34,106 nt of DNA from Candidatus Gastranaerophilales bacterium (GTDB lineage Bacteria; Cyanobacteriota; Vampirovibrionia; Gastranaerophilales; Gastranaerophilaceae). The position numbers were made by a program, and so were the translations under genes. The notes beneath the pieces were generated by a model. The model was given only the letters and a program-made list of their open reading frames with translations, had not been told where the DNA came from and searched no databases. The stretch covers positions 1-34,106 of the forward strand of contig CALUWF010000017.1 of NCBI GenBank assembly GCA_944324405.1. The letters are read 5' to 3'. Positions 31,634-34,106 of this stretch are shown here, piece after piece; position 1 is the first letter of the stretch; each line of letters opens with the position of its first letter.

Positions 31634-31771
31634 TGTGCAGAATATTATACTGCAAGATTAATCGCCAAAGATAATAAATGGAATATTTTTAGCGTAGGAT
31701 ACAAAAGGGCGTATGGCTTATTTTTTAACAATTCGAGCCAAATATTTTTTAACTTGTCAAACTTTTACAAA

Positions 31772-31808
31772 TAAAAATAAAATTGGCGTTTAAGCTTGCT
31801 TAAACGCC
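31772..31808 (-). terminator. Intrinsic terminator of the truncated GlcG-like gene
   Basis: GGCGTTTAAG (31785-31794) and CTTAAACGCC (31799-31808) form a perfect 10-bp stem with a 4-base loop. On the minus strand it is followed by AATTTTATTTTTAT. It includes the stop codon of the remnant (31800-31802). The preceding stretch 31634-31771 holds nothing I can identify. Confidence 0.75.
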
Positions 31809-32039
31809 ATATACACTTTGCAGTTTTTCAAATTCTTTCAGAATATATTCTGCAATTTTACAATCTTGTTCTTCCGTTCCGCCGCCGACACCGATGCCGC
31901 CGGCTATTTTACCGTTTACAAATAAAGGATAGCCTCCTGCTACAAGTGTTATTTTCTTATCATTTGACTGAATTGCCATTAAAGAATTTCCTTCTTTTGC
32001 CCAATGAGCTACATCTTTTGTTTTGCTTTGAGTGTAAAT
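31800..32039 (-). pseudogene. 5'-truncated GlcG/HbpS-family (DUF336) gene
   Basis: Minus-strand open stretch of 79 codons ending at TAA (31800-31802), with no usable start; an in-frame stop lies at 32040-32042. The translation matches the C-terminal half of GlcG/HbpS heme-binding-type proteins: KDVAHWAKEGNSLMAIQ, then TLVAGGYPLFVNGKIAGGIG, then VGGGTEEQDCKIAEYIL. Normal members are about 135-150 residues, so roughly the first 45-60 are missing. The sequence upstream (32043-32137) does not continue the family in any frame. The intact terminator shows it was once an expressed gene. Confidence 0.8.
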
Positions 32040-32137
32040 TTATCACTAATTTCAAGCTTTGCATTTATTGTTTCATTATATTATTATACTATTTTTTGCC
32101 TGTTTTGTTTATGATAATATTACAAAAAAGTGTTTAT

Positions 32138-32731
32138 ATGGGCAGAAAAGAATACAGATATATTGATACGGAATCAAAAGAACTTTTTGATATTAACGTT
32201 AAAGCCCGAGCCTTGACAAAAGAGTATTCTCAAACAAATTATGACAATCTTGAGAAAAAGGAAGCTATTTTAAAGGAATTATTTGGCTCAATCGGTAAAA
32301 ATGTTGCTATTGACGTAAATTTCTTTTGTGATTTCGGAAGTAATATTTTTATCGGGGATGATGTAATAATAAATTCAAGCTGTACTTTTATTGACAATGA
32401 AAAGATTATTATAGGAAATAAAGTCCTGATTGCACCGAACGTTCAAATTTACACTGCCTATCATCCTCTGCTGCCGGAACAAAGAATTATTGAGAAAAAA
32501 GAAGGCTCTGACTGTTATTATACAACCTGTGCGGATCCGGTAGAAATAAAAGACGGTGTTTGGATTGGCGGGGGTGTGATAATTCTTCCGGGTGTAACTA
32601 TCGGGGAAAATAGCGTAATTGGAGCAGGCAGCGTGGTTACACGTTCAATTCCGGATAACTGTGTTGCCGTCGGAAATCCTTGCCGGGTTATAAAATTCTT
32701 TGATGACATCAGAAAGGAAAATAATGTATAA
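32138..32731 (+). CDS. Maltose/galactoside-type sugar O-acetyltransferase
   Basis: Acetyl-CoA-dependent O-acetyltransferase of the LacA/Maa/NodL left-handed beta-helix family. The 197-residue product has an N-terminal helical Mac domain (MGRKEYRY to about residue 55), hexapeptide repeats (FCDFGSNIFIGDDVIINSS and IIIGNKVLIAPNV), the catalytic His in YTAYHPLLPEQR and the C-terminal GVWIGGGVIILPGVTIGENSVIGAGSVVT. The ATG at 32138 is the family-like start; the frame is open far upstream but that sequence lies over the antisense GlcG remnant. The last 8 bases overlap the start of the frameshifted HAD gene. Confidence 0.9.
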   Translation: MGRKEYRYIDTESKELFDINVKARALTKEYSQTNYDNLEKKEAILKELFGSIGKNVAIDVNFFCDFGSNIFIGDDVIINSSCTFIDNEKIIIGNKVLIAPNVQIYTAYHPLLPEQRIIEKKEGSDCYYTTCADPVEIKDGVWIGGGVIILPGVTIGENSVIGAGSVVTRSIPDNCVAVGNPCRVIKFFDDIRKENNV

Positions 32732-33333
32732 ACATATTGTTTTGATGTTGACGGAACTTTGATTGATACTGAATATGCGCTTCTGCATTCTCTGAGAGAT
32801 ATATTAAAAGAGGAATATGACAGAAATTATAAAATTGAAGAATTGGAATTTGCACTTGGAATAACAGGTGAAGCCGCTATAGTACAACTTGAAATTTCTA
32901 ATATCAAATATGCTATAGAGTTATGGAATGATAAATTAAATAAATATAAAGAGACCGTTTGTGTTTTTAACGGAATAGAAGAACTCTTAAAACAACTTTC
33001 GCTAAATTATAAATTAGGAATTGTGACTTCAAAAACAAAGGAAGAATTTGAAGAAGAGGTTGTACATTTCGGGCTAAATAAATATTTTGGAATAATTATT
33101 TGTGCCGATGATACAAAAAAGCATAAACCAAACCCGGAACCGCTTTTGAAGTATATGGAACTTGCAAATGCAAAAAATAATGAAATTATTTATATAGGCG
33201 ACAGTATTTATGATATGCAATGTGCAAAAGCGTCCAATGTTGATTTTGTTTTTGCAAAGTGGGCAATAAAAGACAGAACATAGAAGCAAAATATACCCTT
33301 AATCAACCTTTAGAATTATTAAATCGGGTATAA
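32724..33333 (+). pseudogene. HAD-family phosphatase gene with two frameshifts
   Basis: ATG at 32724, preceded by AAGGA, encodes MYKHIV. The HAD motif I then appears only one frame over, as FDVDGTLIDTE from 32741. One T appears missing from the T-run at 32740-32743. The middle part is intact over 32741-33283 and shows motif II-like GIVTSKTKEEFEE, the motif III Lys in KKHKPNPEPLL and motif IV IYIGDSIYDMQ. After KDRT the frame hits TAG at 33281-33283, but the other frame continues as NIEAKYTLNQPLELLNRV to a TAA at 33331-33333, which is the expected C terminus. One A appears missing near 33276-33279. Either two sequencing errors or a decayed gene; the intact gene would give about 202 residues. 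Confidence 0.8.
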
Positions 33334-33429
33334 AATTTTGTATTTTTTAAGTTGAACGTTTTTCTTTATTGCCTATCCAGGTTTTAACTCATATGCAAAA
33401 TCACGGCAAATATTAAAGCACGGTTGTGC

Positions 33430-33470
33430 GCTAAACAAGCTCTTAGAGGACTTCTAAGGGCTTGTTTAGC
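33430..33470. repeat. Long stem-loop beside the tRNA remnant
   Basis: GCTAAACAAGC (33430-33440) and GCTTGTTTAGC (33460-33470) pair perfectly. The stem continues through one wobble pair and CTTAGA/TCTAAG (33442-33447 with 33453-33458), giving about 18 bp and a 5-base loop. It lies 3 bases from the CCA end of the tRNA fragment and could be the old tRNA terminator or a recombinase recognition structure. There is no strong T-run on either side. Confidence 0.7.
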
Positions 33471-33473
33471 AAT

Positions 33474-33497
33474 TGGTTACGGGAGTTGGATTTGAAC
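33474..33497 (-). other. Isolated 3' end of an initiator-type tRNA (probable att site)
   Basis: Read on the minus strand, the block holds the T-loop TTCAAAT, the T-stem 3' arm CCAAC, an acceptor 3' arm TCCCGTA, discriminator A and an encoded CCA. The 5' arm of the T-stem and everything upstream are absent: bases 33498 onward do not pair or fold as a tRNA. An A at position 72 before A73 is a mark of initiator tRNA-fMet, and the T-arm resembles fMet genes. A lone tRNA 3' end is the usual scar where an integrative element recombined into a tRNA gene. The 157 bases on its left, back to 33334, hold only the stem-loop and nothing else recognisable. Confidence 0.7.
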
Positions 33498-33620
33498 ATT
33501 TTTGTTGAATTATTTTTACAGTTTCTTTATGCTTTTAAATCTTTCTATTTCTTTTGGTCACTTAAAATTTTTGCCCCTATGCCTTATAAATATTATTTTA
33601 ATAATACCGGGTCTGTCACA

Positions 33621-33645
33621 GGCGGGGAATTCCCCGCCATTTTTA
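33621..33645 (+). terminator. Palindromic intrinsic terminator
   Basis: A perfect 18-bp palindrome (33621-33638, GGCGGGG arms around AATT) is followed on the plus strand by ATTTTTAATA. Its design is like the yggS-sepF terminator. No intact plus-strand gene precedes it within 290 bases, so it may belong to a lost gene. The stretch 33498-33620 shows no gene I can support. Confidence 0.65.
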
Positions 33646-33749
33646 ATATAGGGGAGAAATGAGCGAATTTAGGAATATTTATGGATTAATCGGGAATTTT
33701 TGCGGCAAACCGCTCTTAAAAAGACAATTTGAAAGATTATAAAGCATAA

Positions 33750-34091
33750 CTAAGGGTTCTTTTTTGTATTGTTATACTTTTTTACCGACTCTATAAGATT
33801 TAAATACAGTTCTAACTCCTCATTATCAGATGAATATATTTCTTTTATTATTCTATCCCTGTTAGTATTCTCTATTTTTTCTATCTGTATACCAAATTCG
33901 GACAGAGGAATTTTTAATGTATCTATGAGCTTGAAAAAAGTTTCAAGACTTGGCATAAAAACTCCTCTTTCCAATTTGCCATAATGCTTTTCTGCTATTT
34001 CAATTTTTTCCGAAAGTTCTTCCTGGGTAAGATTTGCCTTCTTTCTGTATTCTTTAAACTTTTTGCCTAAAAATTCTTTGTCATAAAACAT
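33750..34091 (-). CDS. XRE-family helix-turn-helix regulator
   Basis: A 113-residue probable DNA-binding protein. Residues 7-65 form an HTH_3 (Cro/CI-type) domain: FKEYRKKANLTQEELSEKIEIAEKHYGKLERG, then MPSLETFFKLIDTLKIPLSEF. The C-terminal part (66-113) is charged and helical with no known ligand domain. The ATG at 34089-34091 has GAGG 13 bases upstream, further than ideal; the window ends 15 bases upstream, so the promoter is mostly outside. Its place just inside a tRNA-end scar fits the regulator of an integrated element, but it could also be an ordinary chromosomal regulator. Confidence 0.85.
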   Translation of the reverse strand: MFYDKEFLGKKFKEYRKKANLTQEELSEKIEIAEKHYGKLERGVFMPSLETFFKLIDTLKIPLSEFGIQIEKIENTNRDRIIKEIYSSDNEELELYLNLIESVKKYNNTKKNP

Positions 34092-34106
34092 AAGGGAATA
34101 TACCTC

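Follow-up and report, generated by a model that had tools for sequence, protein, structure and literature searches.

An attR-type scar at a tRNA-fMet gene is a known kind of trace, and tDNA islands have been catalogued by Islander (Hudson, Lau and Williams, PMC4383910). The mechanism by which a tRNA tail is left behind as a scar is already textbook material, and the locus described here is a further instance, a mobile-DNA scar of an ordinary kind. The locus suggests that small integrating elements have repeatedly entered the genomes of Gastranaerophilaceae at tRNA-fMet; on such elements in this uncultured gut lineage our search of the literature found nothing.

The locus lies at the right end of the window, the whole stretch of 34,106 nucleotides that was analysed, which is contig 17 (C17) of an assembly of 1.80 Mb in 48 contigs that is estimated to be 99.6% complete. 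The nearest relatives of the window are Candidatus Gastranaerophilales assemblies and its left part is mostly core chromosome, with Mfd, SMC and SurA-type genes. Close to the right end the minus strand reads GTTCAAATCCAACTCCCGTAACCA, a tRNA-fMet 3' tail of 24 bases with the tRNA body absent (Table 1). This tail is likely what remains, in decayed form, of the far (attR-type) end of a tyrosine-recombinase element that had inserted itself into tRNA-fMet. A worn-down element end is the most likely source because the XRE gene beside the tail sits at the same element end in other gut Gastranaerophilales.

Table 1 Features at the right end of the window.
Feature	Position	Strand	Remarks
Non-syntenic stretch, BcrAD to tail	31634..33429		GlcG/HbpS-like remnant (inferred from translation), maltose-acetyltransferase-like gene, HAD gene
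Hairpin directly after tail	33430..33470	minus	Probable old tRNA-fMet terminator, no T-run
Displaced tRNA-fMet 3' tail	33474..33497	minus	T-loop, 3' half of T-stem, 3' acceptor strand, discriminator base, CCA
DNA between tail and XRE	33498..33749		No close match to the corresponding L100/L102/L103 stretch
AATAATTCAAC motif	33504..33514	minus	Candidate integrase arm-type site; sole copy in the 34 kb window
XRE-type HTH regulator, 113 aa	33750..34091	minus	Pfam HTH_3 2e-14

Neither the tRNA search nor the Rfam search of the whole window gave anything that reaches threshold. The complete tRNA-fMet gene of this genome is found at the very end of another contig, C4, whose last bases are ...GGTTCAAATCCAGCTCCCGCAA. 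The comparison of the tail with this gene leaves out the CCA, as C4 stops before it; CCA follows the same tRNA in relatives. Among the comparable bases there are two substitutions, both G/C to A/T transitions, at tRNA position 64 (G to A) and position 71 (C to T). Among the tRNA ends collected from the assembly, that of tRNA-fMet is the only one with such a match in the window, which bears out the assignment to initiator tRNA in the initial annotation. The description given there, a clean tRNA 3' end without a body, holds for the 24 bases and the missing tRNA and not for the cleanness, given the two substitutions and a length short of the 45 bases, from anticodon loop to CCA, seen in the elements of relatives; 21 of the 45 are missing. 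Because the tail variant of the window (at most one mismatch) occurs in 0 other genomes of the 288 family genomes searched, including as a donor tRNA, a foreign donor tRNA would be an unlikely source and decay the simpler reading.

The intact arrangement is present in relatives. Three of them (G006, G003 and G020) carry a complete tRNA-fMet, an element of 6.6-9.4 kb with a tyrosine recombinase gene and a displaced 45-base tail that begins in the anticodon loop, and L100 holds the same pair of complete tRNA-fMet and displaced tail. That tyrosine-recombinase elements entering tRNA genes leave fragments of this kind, as had been proposed for the window, is thus supported by the family. The G006 element encodes an integrase, excisionase-like, primase-like and DnaD-like proteins (PHROGs) and HSDR_N. 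Downstream of tRNA-fMet, which in the genus lies next to lptC-like genes, nearly every relative has different DNA. The tyrosine recombinase genes between complete gene and displaced 3' fragments support tRNA-fMet as an integration hotspot in Gastranaerophilaceae. As a separate observation, tRNA 3' tails in nested or tandem arrangement, with a terminator behind each, occur at L106:2503-2926, L090:5352-5602 and L039; those in L106 are tRNA-Arg tails of 42, 21 and 16 bases. G014 contains repeated 114-bp units carrying an fMet tail, and in G002 a second terminator-like hairpin accompanies what may be an 8-base tail (CGCAACCA).

The XRE gene ties the tail to these elements. It is transcribed towards the tail, 253 bp away, and L100, L102 and L103 carry a homologue with matching order and orientation at about 0.45 kb from the 45-base tail, on its element side; of these, L100 and L103 were found by a search with the window XRE protein and L102 is G006 itself. 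The placement of the XRE gene just inside the element in the initial annotation is therefore borne out at three loci. Other XRE homologues (L095, L099, L104 and L105) have no tRNA-fMet tail beside them. The gene shares 98% DNA identity with G010 and 83% protein identity with G006. The XRE stretch is thus 98% identical to that of G010 whereas BcrAD, further left in the window, is 86% identical, a contrast that fits horizontal movement. The XRE had no match in viral contigs, nor did the window's right end in phages. At L081:7027-8082 and L084:7947-9020 a stand-alone HSDR_N endonuclease gene (phrog_4225) is divergent from XRE; it may be a small module for restriction or defence that accompanies XRE.

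Between the XRE gene and the tail, 7 bp from the latter, lies the single copy of AATAATTCAAC; the probability of finding this motif by chance in the 25 positions beside the tail is about 2e-5. The same motif stands at element ends in G006, L100 and G004. In L081 and L102 it is found at both element ends (two copies in L102), in L100 twice at the tail end, and in L032 and L089 beside the tRNA. L103 contains no copy and therefore AATAATTCAAC marks only one group of these elements. Its position and repetition make it a candidate binding site for the integrase. In the L100 element (L100:1492-10810) the repeats towards one end differ in type from those towards the other, with TTTGTGTAAT close to tRNA-fMet and AATAATTCAAC close to the tail; the element may thus be a mosaic or two elements.

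On the CCA side of the tail, the 48 adjacent bases fold into a strong hairpin (-24.2 kcal/mol, z -7.7) similar in sequence to the terminators that follow tRNA-fMet in G019, G020 and G003. In the best alignment, to the G019 terminator, 25/34 bases are identical and all 9 differences are transitions; 0/500 shuffles and 0/2000 shuffled hairpins score as high. The hairpin is probably the original tRNA terminator, displaced and worn along with the tail.

These features can be joined in one scheme. Recombination between the tRNA 3' end carried by the element and that of the chromosome would restore a complete tRNA gene on one side of the element and displace the original 3' tail, together with its terminator, to the opposite side. 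The orientation of the tail supports placing the element to its right, and the XRE gene would be cargo of the tail-proximal end. We infer that the window copy descends from such an element, and that its tail was later shortened on the 5' side from 45 to 24 bases and took the two G/C to A/T changes. A later chromosomal rearrangement would have brought the region next to BcrAD. As a route for the shortening we considered recombination of a second AATTCAAC repeat with the T-loop TTCAA; the junction shows no exact fit and this was set aside as a guess.

The element might instead still be whole, with C17 continuing through it into the tRNA-fMet gene that closes C4; its middle would then be missing only from the assembly or bin. 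The tail and the complete tRNA-fMet are on different contigs that both end at this place: C4 stops exactly at the tRNA-fMet 3' end and C17 stops at 34106, inside the XRE upstream region. G010, which has the closest XRE, likewise has a contig that breaks off 16 bp past tRNA-fMet. Genome bins often lack mobile DNA. Against an intact element, the tail and the sole end motif look worn, the 45-bp shared core is absent, and this assembly, despite its estimated completeness, yielded neither an integrase nor a replication gene belonging to such an element. Its only Phage_integrase proteins are XerC and XerD; the excisionase-like, primase-like and HSDR_N genes of G006 have no counterpart in it, and the G006 element DNA shows no similarity to it beyond XRE and the tRNA-fMet core. 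An integrase gene beside a complete tRNA-fMet, for which the initial annotation had advised a search, was thus located in relatives and not in this genome, where the interval between tRNA and fragment is itself unassembled. We regard an element that is still whole as possible, if somewhat doubtful.

Shortening of the tail would not be required if another integrase had crossed over in the T-loop, making the 24 bases a full tail. The tail does start at the T-loop, which Islander lists among the crossover subsites of tRNA genes (PMC4383910), and the 21- and 16-base tails at tRNA-Arg in L106 show that short tails exist. The motif beside the tail, however, belongs to elements with 45-base cores that begin in the anticodon loop, and we consider a T-loop crossover unlikely.

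The left flank bears on how the scar came to its present place. The conserved gene order is interrupted immediately after BcrAD (31633), some 1.8 kb to the left of the tail. BcrAD is followed by DegT in 14/14 same-genus relatives and, where contigs reach, by flagellin, RsmE and the CCA-adding enzyme, with tRNA-Leu(tag) in five relatives. In the present genome the block of DegT, flagellin, RsmE, CCA-adding enzyme and tRNA-Leu(tag) lies between uvrA and aroE (C31:9455-14505 and C34:1-1411); in relatives, where readable, aroE and topA precede uvrA. As read from these gene orders, the block from DegT to tRNA-Leu(tag) has moved away from BcrAD in this genome, with an assembly chimera as the alternative. 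The possibility that C31, the contig with DegT, is the other end of an inserted island was rejected: it holds uvrA and other core genes, and a rearrangement therefore explains the break after BcrAD. The decayed genes to the left had been taken as DNA flanking the island. This does not hold, because the conserved order stops at BcrAD and the block that should follow is elsewhere. The HAD phosphatase gene among them (32725-33283) has a 1-nt shift near codon 7, close to the gene start, which is decay or an assembly error. The suggested comparison with an empty site came to nothing: none with the left flank of the window was found in relatives, and a search with 32150-33470 gave only short, weak acetyltransferase-like matches.

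The same flank lends some support to a reading in which tail and XRE were carried in as a mobile or rearranged piece and integration into tRNA-fMet never occurred here in this lineage. The region sits at the BcrAD rearrangement breakpoint and not at the lptC/tRNA-fMet locus of relatives; in these, the BcrAD neighborhood is not near tRNA-fMet on any shared contig. However, the hairpin resembles a chromosomal terminator of tRNA-fMet, a sequence located outside the element that must then have travelled with the piece; import as a ready-made piece is thus rather improbable. Chance resemblance to a tRNA 3' end is conceivable for merely 24 bases, two of them differing, but can be dismissed almost with certainty, as an independent-base model predicts about 6e-6 occurrences of a 24-mer with up to two mismatches to the tRNA-fMet end in the 1.8 Mb genome, and 2e-7 in the window, and the hairpin, motif and XRE context add to this. 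A broader proposal, in which the fMet tails and terminators accumulating in the family preserve a legible history of repeated arrivals of elements, scars also mark the sites of later rearrangement, and the window holds one such scar at a breakpoint, strikes us as a long shot.

Compared with the islands in Islander, the locus is alike in that the 3' fragment reaches the tRNA end, a complete tRNA is present in the same genome and the element is expected 5' of the fragment, and relatives show the full signature with an integrase. It is unlike them in that tRNA and fragment are on separate contigs, in the mutations and short length of the fragment, and in the lack of any integrase in this assembly; it would therefore fail the Islander filters.

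The G006 element also resembles phage-satellite-like islands of the PICI type, to which we liken it by gene content, in its set of integrase, excisionase-like, primase-like and DnaD-like genes; the window, unlike these islands, holds an element end only. Such a set is the general make-up of satellites.

The closest counterparts are the tRNA-fMet elements of Gastranaerophilaceae itself (G006/L102, L100 and L103). These have an XRE gene near the displaced tail, as here, with AATAATTCAAC in L100 and L102 and, in L100 and L103, a hairpin after the displaced tail; they differ from the window in their 45-base tail and, in L102, in a 93-aa gene between XRE and tail. The combination of tail, end motif and XRE offers a practical marker of element ends in fragmented genomes.
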